Shown here one piece after another: positions 17,944-23,580 of a stretch of 36,203 bases of DNA (its first letter is position 1; every line of letters starts with the position of its first letter). Location of the stretch: contig CADAMO010000034.1 in assembly GCA_902788995.1 (NCBI GenBank), positions 1 through 36,203 on the forward strand. The letters run 5' to 3'. The notes under the pieces are model-generated. The model saw only the letters and a program-made list of their open reading frames with translations. It was not told the origin of the DNA and did not search any database. Origin of the DNA: Oscillospiraceae bacterium. Lineage in GTDB: Bacteria > Bacillota > Clostridia > Oscillospirales > Acutalibacteraceae. A program made the translations under genes and the position numbers.

Positions 17944-17978
17944 TGAAAAAATGAGTGACAAAGCAGGAGGATTGCAAC

Positions 17979-19109
17979 ATGAAATACCGCACCATGGGGA
18001 AGCTGGGCGTCAAGACGTCCGCCTTCGGCCTCGGCTGCATGCGCTTCAACGGCGAGGCCTCCGGCGATACCGTGATCGACGAGCAGAAGGCCATCAATCT
18101 GATCCGGCAGGCCATCGACGGCGGTGTGACCTACCTTGATACCGCCTACGTCTATCTCAACAAAACCTCGGAGATCGTGGTGGGCAAGGCCCTGCGGGAC
18201 GGCTACCGGGACAAGGTGACCATTGCCACGAAAATGCCGCTGGGTTCCGTCAGCGACCGGCAGAGCATGGAGGCCCTGCTGGCGGAGGAGCTGGAAAAGC
18301 TGCAGACCGACCATATCGACTTCTACCTGATGCACGGCATCGACAAGGAGGATTGGGAACAATTCAAGACCATCGGCGCGCCGCAGTTTTTCGACGATAT
18401 GAAGAAGGAGGGCAAGATCCGCTATAAGTGTTTTTCCTTTCACGGGTCCTATGAGGACTTTGCCTATATCCTGAACGACTACGACTGGGACATGGTGCAG
18501 ATCCAGCTCAACTACATGGATATCGAGAATCAGGCGGGGCTGAAGGGCCTGAAACTGGCGGGCGAAAAGGGGATCCCCGTGGTCATCATGGAGGGGCTGC
18601 TGGGCGGCAGGCTCTCCCACGCGCCGGAAAACGTACAGGCGCTCTATGACGCTTTTCCCGTGAAGCGCTCCCCGGTGGAATGGGCCTTCCGGTGGCTGTG
18701 CCACCACCCGGAGGTGGCGGTGGTGCTCTCCGGCTGCAACGAGCCGGAGCAGATCGAGGAAAATCTGCGGATCTTTGACGCCGTGGAGGCGGGCGCGATG
18801 GACGAAAACGAGCTGCAACTGATGGAGAACGTGCGCAAGGCCTACCTGGCCCGCACGAAGATCGGCTGCACCGGCTGTAAATACTGCATGCCCTGCCCGG
18901 GCGGCGTGAACATCCCCGGCATCTTCTCCGTCTGGAACAACGTCTCCCTCTACTGCACGGACCCGGCCAAGGACTGGGGATTGAAACGGATCAGGGAAAA
19001 CGACGCCGGGGCGGACAAGTGCCTTTCCTGCGGCGCCTGCGAAGCCGCCTGCCCCCAGCACCTGCCCATCATCGGGCAATTGCAGCAGGCGTGGAAAGAG
19101 CTGGGCTGA
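17979..19109 (+). CDS. Ferredoxin-tailed aldo/keto reductase 1
   Basis: This 376-aa protein is an aldo/keto reductase barrel (LGVKTSAFGLGCMRFN; Asp/Tyr in GGVTYLDTAYVY; Lys in TIATKMP; His in FYLMHGID) followed by a C-terminal 4Fe-4S ferredoxin-like domain with two cysteine sets, CTGCKYCMPCP and CLSCGACEAACP. Such proteins are common in anaerobes and are thought to couple a carbonyl or polyol reaction to low-potential electron carriers; substrates are mostly unknown. The start at 17979 is chosen because AGGAGG lies 8 nt upstream; an earlier ATG at 17955 has no ribosome binding site. Monocistronic; repeat-rich DNA follows. Confidence 0.9.
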   Translation: MKYRTMGKLGVKTSAFGLGCMRFNGEASGDTVIDEQKAINLIRQAIDGGVTYLDTAYVYLNKTSEIVVGKALRDGYRDKVTIATKMPLGSVSDRQSMEALLAEELEKLQTDHIDFYLMHGIDKEDWEQFKTIGAPQFFDDMKKEGKIRYKCFSFHGSYEDFAYILNDYDWDMVQIQLNYMDIENQAGLKGLKLAGEKGIPVVIMEGLLGGRLSHAPENVQALYDAFPVKRSPVEWAFRWLCHHPEVAVVLSGCNEPEQIEENLRIFDAVEAGAMDENELQLMENVRKAYLARTKIGCTGCKYCMPCPGGVNIPGIFSVWNNVSLYCTDPAKDWGLKRIRENDAGADKCLSCGACEAACPQHLPIIGQLQQAWKELG

Positions 19110-19252: not shown

Positions 19253-19415
19253 TACTGCTCCACCAATTAATACTTGAAGATTTCTGCTTGTCTAAACGCC
19301 GCAATACGGCGTCAGAAATCCTCGACAGGCGACAGCCTGTCTTGCGGGTTTCTTCCTTGTCTTGCGACGTTTATACGGCGCATAAATAATTCACGATTAA
19401 ATTGGTGGAGCAGTA
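19253..19415 (+). mobile_element. MITE-like element, copy A (163 bp)
   Basis: Begins TACTGCTCCACCAATT and ends with the reverse complement AATTGGTGGAGCAGTA, giving 16-bp perfect terminal inverted repeats bounded by TA on both sides, as in TA-targeting (IS630/mariner-type) elements. The interior folds into nested hairpins (ATTTCTG/CAGAAAT around ACGCCG/CGGCGT; GACAGGC/GCCTGTC). It codes for nothing convincing. A near-identical copy lies inverted at 35291-35457; they differ by a 5-base and a 1-base indel and one substitution. Confidence 0.8.
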
Positions 19416-19465
19416 TTATAGCATCTTTTTATGCGGAAGGAAAGATTTTTCAGAAGAAATTATTT

Positions 19466-19489
19466 TTTGGTAAAGAACTGTTTACTAAA
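19466..19489. promoter_or_regulatory. Operator-like inverted repeat over the MarR-CsoR promoter
   Basis: TTTGGTAAA (19466-19474), 6 nt, TTTACTAAA (19481-19489): 9-bp half-sites with one mismatch. The right half covers the -35 box, a typical autorepression position for a MarR-type protein. Confidence 0.5.
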
Positions 19490-19509
19490 TCGGCCTCGGG
19501 TGCTATAAT
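19481..19509 (+). promoter_or_regulatory. Promoter of the MarR-CsoR gene
   Basis: TTTACT (19481-19486), 17 nt, TATAAT (19504-19509), about 30 nt before the start codon. Confidence 0.72.
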
Positions 19510-19542
19510 AACGGTAATCTGGACAGAAAGGATCTGTCTTCC

Positions 19543-20223
19543 ATGTCTGACCATACCGCCCCCATTGACAGCCGCGCATCGGAGCTGATCGCGGTTTATG
19601 AATCCACCGCGAAAAAAAACGGCCTGACAGTACCCATGCTCCGGGTGCTGGAGACTGTCTGCCTGTGCCCCGGCTGTACGCAGAAAGCGGTGGGGGACGC
19701 GATGCGGACGTCGAAACAGCGGGTCAATCTGCTGGTGCGCGAGCTGGTGCAGCGGCAGCTGCTGACACAGCGCCGGAACGAAAACGACGGCAGAAGCAAG
19801 CTGCTGGCCCTGACCCAAAAGGGGGAGGCCATAACGGCGGAGCTGCGCCGCGCGGCGGAGCATGGCGACGGCGCTTCCGCCTCCCGCGGGACGCACACGC
19901 ACGTGCTGGAAGACGGCACGGTCGTCACCCACTCCCATGGGGACGCCCACGGGCACGTCCACTCCCATCAGCACACCAAAGCGGTGCTGGACAGGCTGGC
20001 GCGGTCCATCGGCCATCTGGAAAAGGTGCGGCAGATGGTGGAGGCCGGCGCGGATTGCAGCGAGGTGCTGATCCAGCTTTCCGCCGTGAAGGCCTCCGTC
20101 AACAGCACCGGCAAGCTGATCCTGAAGGACCACATCGAGCACTGCCTGGTGGACGCGGTGGAGCACGGCGACCATCAGACGGTGGAGGAGCTGAACCGGG
20201 CCATCGACCAGTTTATCAAATGA
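19543..20223 (+). CDS. Chimeric MarR-type / His-rich / CsoR-type metal-sensing regulator
   Basis: This 226-aa protein fuses two regulator families. Residues about 10-105 are a MarR-like winged helix (GLTVPMLRVLETVC, TQKAVGDAMRTSKQRVNLLV, the wing RRNENDGRSKLLALT). Residues 117-144 are His-rich (nine His, e.g. THTH and HSHGDAHGHVHSHQH). Residues 146-226 are a CsoR/RcnR-type four-helix domain; C172, H197 and C201 show the spacing of the CsoR copper site (Cys, +25 His, +4 Cys). CsoR proteins release DNA on binding Cu(I) or other metals. So DNA binding could come from either end and be gated by metal (inference). A MarR-like inverted repeat overlaps its promoter. The start ATG has AAAGGA 11 nt upstream. 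It is convergent with a membrane-protein pair. Confidence 0.88.
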   Translation: MSDHTAPIDSRASELIAVYESTAKKNGLTVPMLRVLETVCLCPGCTQKAVGDAMRTSKQRVNLLVRELVQRQLLTQRRNENDGRSKLLALTQKGEAITAELRRAAEHGDGASASRGTHTHVLEDGTVVTHSHGDAHGHVHSHQHTKAVLDRLARSIGHLEKVRQMVEAGADCSEVLIQLSAVKASVNSTGKLILKDHIEHCLVDAVEHGDHQTVEELNRAIDQFIK

Positions 20224-20232
20224 ACATAGAAA

Positions 20233-20273
20233 AGATCCGCAGCGGGAAAAGCTCCCTCTGCGGATCTGTTTTT
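20233..20273 (+). terminator. Terminator of the MarR-CsoR gene
   Basis: AGATCCGCAG (20233-20242) pairs with CTGCGGATCT (20258-20267), followed by GTTTTTT. It starts 10 nt after the stop codon. Confidence 0.88.
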
Positions 20274-20283
20274 TATTGCGTTT

Positions 20284-20592
20284 TTATTTTTTCAGCAGCT
20301 TCGCGCGCACCGTGCCGCGGGGATCCTTGATGAGCAGGATCACGACCCAGATGATCAGCGCGAGGGCTATGACGGAGAGCCCCAGGAAGGAATCGTTGAT
20401 CATGTCCTCCAGGGCGGGGGTGAAGTACTCCGCTTTCAGCTCGGCATACTCAAAGATCGCGTCCACCAGCCACATGATGGAAGCGCCCCAGAACATCCAG
20501 CACAGGGGCCCCAGCATCATCTTTTCGTCGCTCTTTTTATACCAGATCGCGGTGGTGATCACGGCGGCGAAAACGGTGATCAGTAACGTCAT
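20284..20592 (-). CDS. Small membrane protein (102 aa), partner 2
   Basis: This 102-aa protein has three likely membrane segments: residues about 2-17 (LLITVFAAVITTAIW), 27-46 (GPLCWMFWGASIMWLVDAIF) and 69-88 (LGLSVIALALIIWVVILL), with a basic C-terminal tail ending KDPRGTVRAKLLKK. Charged residues in DAIFEYAELKAEYF sit between segments 2 and 3. Family not named by me. Its ATG overlaps the stop of the upstream membrane gene by 4 nt (ATGA-type), so the two are translationally coupled and probably form one complex. Convergent with the MarR-CsoR regulator, which suggests, but does not prove, a metal-linked role. Confidence 0.82.
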   Translation of the reverse strand: MTLLITVFAAVITTAIWYKKSDEKMMLGPLCWMFWGASIMWLVDAIFEYAELKAEYFTPALEDMINDSFLGLSVIALALIIWVVILLIKDPRGTVRAKLLKK

Positions 20593-21005
20593 ACGCTTGC
20601 CTCCGCTTTCTGCGGGGCCGGGCGTTTTTCAATCGCTGCGGAGACCAGCACCATCGCGACCCAGATCACGGTGACCAGCACCGCCATCAGCACGCCCACC
20701 GAGACCATCTCGCTCAGCATCTCCGAGACCGCTTCCGGCCCCTCCGTTGCCGCGGTTAAGAACGGGAAGAAGGGAACCACCTCGCCGTGCCACAGGTGCT
20801 CAAACGCCAGCAGGATCACGCCGCCCCACAGCAGGTCGGCCAGCCAGAACAGCTTTCTGGCGAATCCGGTCCTGACAGGGGCTTCCGTGGAAGCGCCGTC
20901 GGAATGCAGCTTCATCTGCGCTCTGTTCTGTTCATACTTTTTCAGCAGAACCGCAGCGGCCGTCACGACGATCGCTTCGGTTCCGGGAACAACAAAACAT
21001 GCCAT
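20589..21005 (-). CDS. Small membrane protein (138 aa), partner 1
   Basis: This 138-aa protein begins MACFVVPGTEAIVVTAAAV, a first membrane segment (about 3-21) with an early Cys. A soluble loop (22-50) is followed by a second segment (51-70, KLFWLADLLWGGVILLAFEH), the motif FEHLWHGEVVPFFPFL with two His and two Glu, and a last segment (about 99-123). The His/Glu motif at a membrane boundary could bind metal (inference). Start: AAAGGAG lies 9 nt before the ATG. First gene of a two-gene operon; possible promoter TTGCGG-18-TAAAAT at 21037-21066 on the minus strand. No characterised family recognised. Confidence 0.82.
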   Translation of the reverse strand: MACFVVPGTEAIVVTAAAVLLKKYEQNRAQMKLHSDGASTEAPVRTGFARKLFWLADLLWGGVILLAFEHLWHGEVVPFFPFLTAATEGPEAVSEMLSEMVSVGVLMAVLVTVIWVAMVLVSAAIEKRPAPQKAEASV

Positions 21006-21036: not shown

Positions 21037-21066
21037 ATTTTATCATAATCCGTTTTTTGTCCGCAA
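21037..21066 (-). promoter_or_regulatory. Possible promoter of the membrane pair
   Basis: Minus strand TTGCGG (21061-21066), 18 nt, TAAAAT (21037-21042). Weak -35; placed by position about 35 nt before the start. Confidence 0.4.
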
Positions 21067-21158
21067 GCCCCCGCCGGGGTTGTTTTTTTATATAAAGAAA
21101 GACGGGTCCCGCGAGAACTTGCTGTCAGCGGAATGAAAAAAATGTCAGGATTGTTTGT

Positions 21159-21227
21159 TGTAACCATTGACATTATAACATGAACGTGGTATAGTGTATA
21201 TAGATGAGACTACGAAGGTTACATCTA
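21159..21227. promoter_or_regulatory. Inverted repeats around the Rrf2 promoter
   Basis: TGTAACC (21159-21165) and GGTTACA (21217-21223) flank the promoter, and TAGATG (21201-21206) pairs with CATCTA (21222-21227) in the leader. Either could be a binding site for the Rrf2 protein encoded next. Confidence 0.4.
21167..21195 (+). promoter_or_regulatory. Promoter of the Rrf2-macrodomain-sirtuin operon
   Basis: TTGACA (21167-21172), 17 nt, TATAGT (21190-21195), about 65 nt before the first gene. Confidence 0.82.
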
Positions 21228-21261: not shown

Positions 21262-21705
21262 ATGCAGATATCCTCAAGATTTACCATCGCGCTTCATATC
21301 TTCACCTGCGTTGACGTGTTCAAAGACCAACGCAAGGTGACCAGCGATTTTCTGGCGGGCAGCATCAATACCAATCCCGTAATCATCCGCAAGATCCTCA
21401 CCCAGCTCAAAAACGCGGGGCTCATCACAGTGGCCCGCGGCACGGGCGGGATCTCCCTGACAAAGGAGCTGTCCGATATCACGTTTTACGACGTGTATGA
21501 AGCCATCGAGCCGGTGGAAAACGGCGACCTGTTCCATTTTCACGAAAGCCCCAACCCGGAATGCCCGGTGGGAAGAAATATCCACGCGCTGCTGGACGAC
21601 AGGCTGAAAGCGATCCAGCGGGCGATGGAGGACGAGATGAAGCGGTACACGCTGCTGGATCTGCGCAGCGGGATCGCCGACCTGCTGGCAAAGGAAACCG
21701 AATGA
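21262..21705 (+). CDS. Rrf2 family transcriptional regulator
   Basis: This 147-aa protein matches the Rrf2 winged helix: MQISSRFTIALHIFTCV, then SDFLAGSINTNPVIIRKILTQL as the recognition part and GLITVARGTGGISLTK as the wing. The cluster-binding triple Cys of IscR/NsrR is absent; only one Cys remains in NPECPVGRN, the pattern of YwnA-like members that sense thiol or electrophile stress. GGAGG lies 8 nt before the start. It is the first gene of the operon, followed after 80 nt by the macrodomain gene, so it probably autoregulates and controls the ADP-ribosylation genes (inference). Confidence 0.88.
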   Translation: MQISSRFTIALHIFTCVDVFKDQRKVTSDFLAGSINTNPVIIRKILTQLKNAGLITVARGTGGISLTKELSDITFYDVYEAIEPVENGDLFHFHESPNPECPVGRNIHALLDDRLKAIQRAMEDEMKRYTLLDLRSGIADLLAKETE

Positions 21706-21785
21706 AGCGCGCCCCGGGAAACGCGCGGTTGACCGGGGCTTTAGCAGGAAAGACAGACGCGCGGCAGAAGAAAGAAGGCAACTCG

Positions 21786-22592
21786 ATGAACGAACAGATC
21801 ACCCAGGAGCAGCGGCTCGACGCATTGGTCGAGGCGTTCAAAAAGGACTCCGTACAATATCAAGACCTGCCGACCCCTGCGGACACGGAAGGGAAGCGGC
21901 GGCTGCTTCGCTCCCTGATGAATATCCGCATGCCGCGAAAGATGGATGATTCCGTTCTCTCCGTTCAGGACGCGTACCTACGGGAGCGCATCCGCGAAAA
22001 CGGAATCGTCACGCTTTCGGAGATCCCTGTGATCAGGGCCGGTATGTCCATCTGGCAGGGCGATATTACGAGGCTTGCTGTTGACGCCATCGTCAACGCC
22101 GCCAACTCGCGGATGCTGGGCTGCTTCGTCCCGATGCACACTTGCATCGACAACTGCATCCATACCTTCGCGGGGGTGCAACTCCGGGAGGCCTGCGACA
22201 GGCAGATGGAACAGCTCCGGGCGCGCTATGGCGGCGATTACGAGCAGCCCACCGGTGTGCCCATGCTGACGGAAGGCTTTAATCTGCCGGCGAAAAAGGT
22301 CGTTCACGTCGTCGGCCCGATCGTGGAGGGAAGCCTGACCGCCGCCCATGAAAAGGCGCTGGCGGACTGCTACCGGAACACCCTTGCGCTGTGCGCCGAA
22401 AACGGCCTGCGCAGCGTGGCCTTCTGCTGCATTTCCACGGGCGTGTTCCGCTTTCCGAACCGGCGGGCGGCGGAGATCGCCGTGGAGACGGTGAGAAGCT
22501 GGCTGAAAGAACACGGCGGCCTGATCGACCGGGTGATTTTCAACGTATTCAAAGATGAGGATAAACGATACTATGAAGAACTCTTATACTGA
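21786..22592 (+). CDS. Zinc-dependent macrodomain protein-ADP-ribose hydrolase
   Basis: This 268-aa protein has an N-terminal helical extension (1-85) and a macrodomain: WQGDITRLAVDAIVNAANS (90-108), then GCFVPMHTCIDNCIH (112-126) whose C113, H118 and C120 fit the zinc-binding loop of Firmicutes SirTM-linked macrodomains, and VVHVVGPIVEG and CCISTGVFRFPN for the second ribose loop. It removes ADP-ribose from modified proteins. The start with AAGG 8-10 nt upstream is preferred over longer frames into the Rrf2 gene. It overlaps the sirtuin start by 20 nt, so they are coupled. Confidence 0.9.
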   Translation: MNEQITQEQRLDALVEAFKKDSVQYQDLPTPADTEGKRRLLRSLMNIRMPRKMDDSVLSVQDAYLRERIRENGIVTLSEIPVIRAGMSIWQGDITRLAVDAIVNAANSRMLGCFVPMHTCIDNCIHTFAGVQLREACDRQMEQLRARYGGDYEQPTGVPMLTEGFNLPAKKVVHVVGPIVEGSLTAAHEKALADCYRNTLALCAENGLRSVAFCCISTGVFRFPNRRAAEIAVETVRSWLKEHGGLIDRVIFNVFKDEDKRYYEELLY

Positions 22593-23580
22593 CCGGCCAA
22601 ACGGTTATCTGGAAACCATCCAAAAGGGGCTTTCCGCCGTGCGCGGCTTTGATCTTCACGTTTCCTACGGCAGCGGAGACCGAAGCGCGCGTCTTACGCG
22701 GCTGAAAAACGAGCTGGAAACCGCGGACGCCGTTGTCGTGGGCGCAGGCGCGGGACTTTCCACCGCGGCGGGGCTGACCTACTCCGGCGAACGCTTTGAA
22801 CGGTATTTCTTTGACTTCGCGGAAAAATACGGCATCCGGGATATGTATTCCGGCGGCTTTTACCCGTTTCCCGACGCGGAGACGCGGTGGGCCTGGTGGG
22901 CGCGGCATATCTATTTCAACCGCTGTATCGACCCGCCGAAGCCGGTCTATCCCGCGCTGCTGTCCCTGCTGGCGGGCAAGGATTATTTCGTGATCACCAC
23001 CAACGTGGATCATCAGTTCCAGCGGGCGGGCTTCGACAAAAAATGCCTGTTCTATACCCAGGGGGATTACGGCCTGTTCCAGAGCGTCGATCCCAAGGTA
23101 CAGGAAACCTTCGACAACGAAGAATGGGTCATGAAAGCCATGGCGGCCCAGGGGTTTGTGCGGGACGAAAACGGCGTATTCCGCGTTCCGGAAACCGGAA
23201 AACTCTCCATGCGGCTGCCTTCGGACCTGATCCCCGCCGCCCCGAACGGCGACCCCGTGACCATGAACCTGCGCTCCGACGATTCCTTTGTGGAGGACGA
23301 GGGCTGGCACAGGGCGTCGGCAGCCTATTCCGATTTCCTGCGCCGCCATCAGGGGCTGCATACGCTGTACCTTGAAATCGGCGTGGGCTCCAACACGCCG
23401 GTGATCATCAAATACCCCTTTTGGCAGATGACGAAAGAAAACAAACAGGCGGTGTACGCCTGCCTCAACTTCTCGGAAGCCTGTTGCCCGAAAGAGATCG
23501 AAAAAAAGTCGATCTGCATTGACGGCGATACGGCGGACGTGCTGGAACAATTACAATCGGATCATTTTTCCGAAAAATAA
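22573..23580 (+). CDS. Class M sirtuin (SirTM), protein ADP-ribosyltransferase
   Basis: This 335-aa protein has the sirtuin NAD-binding features VVVGAGAGLSTAAGL (54-68) and TTNVDHQF (142-149; N144, D146). Where deacetylating sirtuins have catalytic His-Gly it has Q163 in YTQGDYG, the mark of class M sirtuins that ADP-ribosylate a lipoylated carrier rather than deacetylate. The ATG at 22573 (AGGAT upstream) lies inside the macrodomain gene. The known systems also carry a lipoyl carrier (GcvH-L) and ligase (LplA2); neither is present here, so the target must be elsewhere or different. A terminator follows directly. Confidence 0.9.
   Translation: MKNSYTDRPNGYLETIQKGLSAVRGFDLHVSYGSGDRSARLTRLKNELETADAVVVGAGAGLSTAAGLTYSGERFERYFFDFAEKYGIRDMYSGGFYPFPDAETRWAWWARHIYFNRCIDPPKPVYPALLSLLAGKDYFVITTNVDHQFQRAGFDKKCLFYTQGDYGLFQSVDPKVQETFDNEEWVMKAMAAQGFVRDENGVFRVPETGKLSMRLPSDLIPAAPNGDPVTMNLRSDDSFVEDEGWHRASAAYSDFLRRHQGLHTLYLEIGVGSNTPVIIKYPFWQMTKENKQAVYACLNFSEACCPKEIEKKSICIDGDTADVLEQLQSDHFSEK

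Follow-up and report, generated by a model that had tools for sequence, protein, structure and literature searches.

The window, a stretch of 36,203 nucleotides from an Oscillospiraceae bacterium (contig CADAMO010000034.1), contains a gene for a 226-residue protein in which a MarR winged helix is joined by a His-rich bridge to a CsoR domain. The open reading frame starts with ATG. An operon of two small predicted membrane proteins, called here MEMB2 and MEMB1, is convergent to the fusion gene. The features of the locus are:

19469-19486, strand not assigned: candidate MarR-type operator, GGTAAA-GAACTG-TTTACT (pattern search, promoter comparison, alignment)
19481-19509, + strand: predicted fusion promoter, TTTACT-17-TATAAT, with the -35 box inside the palindrome (10 of 12 consensus bases)
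19543-20223, + strand: fusion gene, 226 residues, MarR winged helix, His-rich bridge and CsoR domain (ORF, Pfam, relatives, model)
19570-19860, + strand: MarR winged-helix part, model residues 10-106, wing D82-G83-R84 (PF12802, model)
19894-19974, + strand: His-rich bridge, nine His in residues 118-144, H140 included (sequence, alignments)
19966-20220, + strand: CsoR domain, residues 142-226, with C172, H197 and C201 and with R151, R154 and Q178 (PF02583, alignments, model)
20284-20592, - strand: MEMB1, predicted membrane protein of 102 residues, candidate target, sharing 4 bases with the end of MEMB2 (ORF, comparisons)
20589-21005, - strand: MEMB2, predicted membrane protein of 138 residues with an EHxWHGE motif, candidate target (ORF, comparisons)
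21063-21079, - strand: candidate CsoR-type operator CCCCGGCGGGGGCTTGC before MEMB2 (pattern search, locus counts, alignment)

Upstream of the fusion gene lies an aldo/keto reductase with a C-terminal 4Fe-4S domain (17955-19109, + strand). Where the fusion and MEMB1 genes converge, at 20233-20275, a stem, GATCCGCAG/CTGCGGATC, followed by T's can be seen by eye. It is a likely terminator with a long loop that exceeds the limits of the scan, which did not list it. On the far side of the operon, an Rrf2-family regulator (21262-21705, + strand; PF02082, E 6.9e-32) is divergent from MEMB2, and the promoters predicted on the two strands overlap at 21167-21200. In the stretch 21561-23580 (+ strand) a macro-domain ORF (PF01661, E 3.9e-33) overlaps the next ORF, which has no Pfam match and is SIR2-like by eye (GAGAGLSTAAG). 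The two resemble the macrodomain-sirtuin pairs of other Firmicutes.

Both domains of the fusion protein are recognized by Pfam, confirming the sequence-only reading of the gene as a single MarR plus CsoR protein. PF12802 (MarR_2) covers residues 27-85 (E 2.3e-10, 40.9 bits, cut-off 27) and PF02583 (Trns_repr_metal) residues 145-222 (E 8.1e-24, 84.3 bits, cut-off 22.8). PF01047 (MarR) scores 24.0 bits, just below its cut-off of 24.6. Each of these three profiles matches all six intact fusion proteins at E <= 0.001. The cluster of nine His described earlier occupies positions 118, 120, 130, 132, 136, 138, 140, 142 and 144, and the C172 (+25) H197 (+4) C201 spacing read from the sequence is likewise found. 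The triad is invariant across the six fusions, as are, among other residues, the D82-G83-R84 wing, C45 and H140. The fusion is the sole PF02583 match found in its own genome (E <= 0.001).

The AlphaFold2 model of the monomer has a pLDDT of 77.5 and a pTM of 0.45; because of the latter value the arrangement of the domains in it is unreliable. The model shows a winged helix at residues 10-106, then a bridge of low confidence that includes a small hairpin, and finally three predicted CsoR-like helices (142-167, 172-208 and 211-225). All 50 Foldseek matches listed for the model are of MarR type and no CsoR chain is among them, so that the CsoR fold rests on the sequence and the predicted helices. 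Structure prediction, proposed earlier as a check, thus bore out the winged helix and gave CsoR-like helices, with no CsoR chain among the matches listed. The last helix of the MarR half stops, in the model, 22 residues past the DxR motif, whereas in five ordinary MarRs from the genus 48-57 residues follow it. The C-terminal dimerization helices of MarR are therefore predicted to be largely missing, and we infer from the shortness of this part that the CsoR bundle supplies oligomerization.

Intact fusions were found by profile search in six of the 26 genomes of the genus (G000, G020, G016, G010, G007 and G005). A seventh fusion genome, G025, has the two halves split over two contigs. With the window protein the other intact fusions share 93, 64, 63, 52 and 57% identity, and their occurrence in separate genomes rules out an assembly artefact. 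Outside the genus, the profile search gave no full-length fusion match in 98 relatives or in the samples of the order (394 genomes, E <= 1e-20), class (391, E <= 1e-25) and phylum (398, E <= 1e-20). These samples overlap; the only full-length match within them is G000 itself, and the search could miss fusions with an unrelated MarR. Two phylum matches start at model positions 76 and 80 but contain stops, and inspection by eye showed no MarR at these places. The matches listed from the open-licence literature include no MarR-CsoR or other CsoR-domain fusion, which is weak evidence of absence. The fusion is a new domain architecture inside two known families.

The CsoR half with a His-rich leader is the common form among the best 80 of 212 relatives examined. 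These 80 comprise three intact fusions and one cut by a contig end (in all G020, G010, G007 and G025) and 76 stand-alone CsoRs, identified by reading the ORFs and, for ten long ones, with Pfam. The ten long ORFs were scanned for further fusions, and each contained PF02583 alone. A separate MarR gene adjoining a stand-alone csoR was considered as the ancestor and rejected, as tblastn with the MarR half matched, among the loci searched, fusion loci only; no MarR was seen by eye upstream of three further csoR genes. In the tree the CsoR half of the L006 fusion groups with stand-alone CsoRs (support 98/88), so that two fusions, an exchange or the loss of a MarR half are possible. The history of the fusion, as judged from the sequences, may therefore involve more than one fusion, exchange or loss.

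Several hallmarks of the CsoR/RcnR (DUF156) family are present: the profile, the Cys-His-Cys triad, the RLXR arginines together with the helix-2 Gln, and a candidate G/C-tract operator. Proteins of this family form tetramers (dimers of dimers), and a tetramer would be expected here too. R151, R154 and Q178 are the counterparts of the RLXR arginines and the helix-2 Gln of S. lividans CsoR, whose R57A and Q81A mutants have no measurable DNA binding (PMC3902906). R151 and Q178 are kept in all 35 sequences compared (six fusions and 29 stand-alone proteins, with six more distant CsoRs left out), and R154 is R or K in all of them, being K in one fusion. The retention of these contact residues, together with that of the site before MEMB2 described below, argues against the CsoR half being a mere sensor.

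The metal site looks, from the alignment, InrS-like, with the four ligands H140, C172, H197 and C201, rather than specifically copper-binding. H140, the candidate fourth ligand, is kept in all six fusions and in all 29 stand-alone relatives compared. The residue before the first Cys is Asp (D171) in the six fusions and not the Tyr of the copper subgroup, which M. tuberculosis CsoR has in this place. In copper CsoR this Tyr belongs to a hydrogen-bond network with His and Glu, as described in PMC7055735, where Ni(II) is also described as bound by InrS through His21, Cys53, His78 and Cys82. The copper-site geometry suggested by the first reading of the locus holds for the spacing of the triad; D171 and the extra candidate ligand speak against a specifically copper-binding CsoR. 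Because InrS also binds copper and zinc tightly (PMC4235346), the sequence cannot name the metal of the fusion. The closest solved chains by sequence are the CsoR-like 6ahx and InrS 5fmn.

MEMB2 and MEMB1 each have three hydrophobic stretches by eye, and MEMB1 has conserved acidic residues. Neither protein matches a named family above cut-off, NCBIfam included. BCD (3/26), PEN-2 (4/23) and DUF6297 (3/23) were considered as identities and rejected, all being weak and below cut-off. Among PDB sequences MEMB2 has no match and MEMB1 a single one, at E 0.96; the MEMB2 model has no fold match at E <= 0.001. Of the 26 genomes of the genus 15 have MEMB2, as do 17 of the 150 sampled from the family; in all 16 MEMB2 loci from other genera (L113-L128) it is accompanied by MEMB1. 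The operon adjoins the fusion in G000, G020, G010, G007, G005 and G025 and a stand-alone His-rich CsoR in L036, L038, L057, L070, L091 and L121. In G016 (L004) there is no MEMB1 in the 457 bases beyond the fusion, and MEMB2 lies on another contig.

The candidate site before MEMB2 has the form CCCC-N4-GGGGCTTG. It is type 2-like and lacks the TAC/GTA dyad of the S. lividans site. The pattern CCCCNNNGGGGGCTTGC has its sole match in the genome at 21063-21079, and the reversed control has none. The site is found at -68 to -77, scoring 12-13 of 13, in all 12 MEMB2 loci that adjoin a His-rich CsoR, fused or not. None of the 14 MEMB2 loci without such a neighbour reaches a score of 11 (one scored 10), the absence of a neighbour being defined in a flank of at most about 1.5 kb and one of the 14 having only 117 upstream bases. 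The contrast (Fisher p 1e-7, with kinship ignored and duplicate loci counted once) describes the site rather than independently testing it, as do the palindrome counts given below, because both motifs had first been spotted by eye in the loci that were later counted. L123, set apart from the count, has a score of 11; a His-rich CsoR is encoded on a different contig of its genome (G059). With their more distant MEMB2, L123 and L121 (G160) serve better as independent cases.

Within the genus the site occurs before MEMB2 in all seven fusion genomes; the second MEMB2 copy of G010 was left out of the comparison. Eight MEMB2 genomes have no detected fusion. G003 (69% complete) has the site and G022 (74% complete) a partial one, while G024, G002, G004, G012, G011 and G009 have no C/G-tract site. 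The MEMB2 proteins of L180, L188 and L190-L193 form a second clade in these six genomes and are 53-57% identical to the window MEMB2. This distribution indicates that site and MEMB2 clade go together in the genus. A -10-like TA...T follows the site in all 13 aligned promoters. The window MEMB2 has a weak -35 box beside the site, and the scan places a minus-strand promoter further upstream, at 21200-21172. Similar sites lie within 500 bases upstream of stand-alone csoR in L042, L044, L045, L049, L052, L053 and L061. The form seen before these His-rich csoR genes, ATCCCC...GGGGC, suggests that they may be autoregulated in those lineages. The conserved site provides a first functional lead for the MEMB2/MEMB1 pair, which may be concerned with metal handling.

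The promoter of the fusion gene carries a palindrome of a different kind. MarR operators are palindromic and often lie at the regulator's own promoter, and the 11 bp between the arm centres here, about one helical turn, suit a winged-helix dimer. RGTAAA-N6-TTTACY has its sole match in the 3.38 Mb genome at 19469-19486, the reversed control pattern having two matches per strand. Allowing one mismatch, the window by itself has one match where 0.04 are expected. The pattern GTAAA-N6-TTTAC scores 11-12 of 12 at -71 to -76 in five of the seven fusion promoters (G000, G020, G016, G010 and G025, the last taken from its N-terminal contig), a score of 11 being reached by 0.29% of Markov-resampled fusion promoters. 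The other two, L006 and L007, lack the palindrome (scores 8 and 10). Among 76 stand-alone csoR genes, each taken to begin at the earliest start codon in frame and one lacking any upstream sequence, a single one reaches 11, at -19, and 12 is not attained. On aligning the five promoters, the invariant columns cluster in both arms and in the -10 region. An automatic inverted-repeat scan with arms of at least 7 found nothing at 19380-19545. The fragment first proposed for binding, 19440-19545, does include the palindrome; the CsoR-type site lies outside it, at 21063-21079.

The best explanation, which stands an even chance of being right and is drawn from sequence comparison, is that the fusion works as a metal sensor and repressor in which both DNA-binding modules are functional, the MarR half acting on its own promoter and the CsoR half on the membrane operon. 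The domains, their distribution, the conserved residues and the two conserved candidate sites are shown by the sequences; that each half binds DNA, that the protein represses, that metal releases it and that the halves are coupled is inferred. The CsoR domain would be both oligomeric core and metal sensor, its oligomerization replacing the missing dimerization part of MarR, and it would still bind the ancestral site before the MEMB2-MEMB1 operon. The winged helix, tethered through the His-rich bridge, would bind the separate palindrome over the -35 box of the fusion gene, which would thus be autoregulated. Metal would be held by C172 of one protomer, H197 and C201 of another, and H140 of the bridge. 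Its binding would pull the bridge in, simultaneously loosening the contact of CsoR with DNA and shifting the winged helices.

Several observations run against two working modules. The L006 and L007 fusions have no palindrome, the control pattern of the palindrome does find matches, and the inverted-repeat scan was blank at 19380-19545. Moreover, the site before MEMB2 is present in G003, and partly in G022, where the fusion was not found; the G016 fusion has no MEMB1 within 457 bases; and the promoter predicted on the MEMB2 strand lies upstream of the site, not beside it.

The first reading of the locus had offered either two modules or a metal-gated MarR. In the latter case the winged helix alone would bind DNA, with the CsoR domain reduced to a unit for oligomerization and metal sensing. 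The palindrome at the promoters of five of the seven fusions agrees with this, as does the short MarR C-terminal part, which would call for a new dimerizer. However, a CsoR half of this kind would not be expected to have its DNA-contact residues unchanged, nor the site before MEMB2 to be kept in every fusion genome. Comparison speaks for two modules, since there is a separate conserved candidate site for each half, and a purely metal-gated MarR is considered unlikely.

Improbable to a similar degree is regulation by the CsoR half as in its stand-alone relatives, with the MarR half a passenger or an aid to affinity and the palindrome belonging to another regulator or to the promoter itself. The CsoR-type site is indeed better supported than the palindrome, half of which is made up by the -35 box and which L006 and L007 do without. 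Nevertheless, the MarR wing motif is invariant in the six fusions, the upstream arm of the palindrome is kept at a fixed spacing in five promoters although it lies outside any sigma-70 box, and stand-alone csoR promoters have no palindrome at that position. That the protein integrates two signals, a metal through the CsoR half and a small molecule or oxidant through the MarR half, perhaps via C45, is very improbable: many MarRs do sense such ligands and C45 is invariant in all six fusions, but the ligand pocket typical of MarRs sits against the dimerization helices that are largely missing in the model.

If both modules work, a further possibility, itself rather doubtful, is that one metal-gated tetramer reads two unrelated operators with two unrelated DNA-binding folds. 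It may hold both, 1.6 kb apart, so that a single metal-controlled unit would link the promoter of the regulator with the membrane operon, which would in that case encode a new metal-handling membrane system as yet without a name. The helical bundle with which CsoR proteins contact DNA contains no classical DNA-binding motif. A natural protein keeping this mode together with a winged helix would allow a test, in one molecule, of whether a single metal event switches both. Such a protein would further exemplify how a regulator acquires a second DNA specificity by taking up a domain, here together with a new candidate operator at the promoter of its own gene. The two candidate operators and the candidate target operon are new here.

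The closest known counterparts of the CsoR half are the stand-alone His-rich CsoRs of Clostridia. They are up to 77% identical to it, have the same metal and DNA-contact residues, and show the same type of site before MEMB2 where the two adjoin. They differ in having neither the MarR domain nor GTAAA-N6-TTTAC at -71 to -76. The winged helix and DxR wing of the fusion are those of the MarR family (MexR, PcaV, SP03579 and others among the Foldseek matches listed), whose ordinary members possess the C-terminal dimerization part. InrS, the Ni(II)-responsive CsoR/RcnR-family repressor of Synechocystis (PDB 5fmn), is the second-best solved match (E 9.5e-18). It shares the Cys-His-Cys triad and a His in a His-rich N-terminal extension, His21 aligning with H140. 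InrS has no MarR domain, however, and of its allosteric residues Glu95 aligns with T213 and Glu98 with E216, which is kept in only four of the six fusions. AdcR, a zinc-responsive MarR repressor, resembles the fusion in placing a MarR fold under metal control, as is predicted here; its NCBIfam profile NF038251 matches the fusion weakly (19.6 bits, cut-off 175). AdcR holds its zinc within the MarR fold, whereas the candidate metal site of the fusion lies in the second domain.
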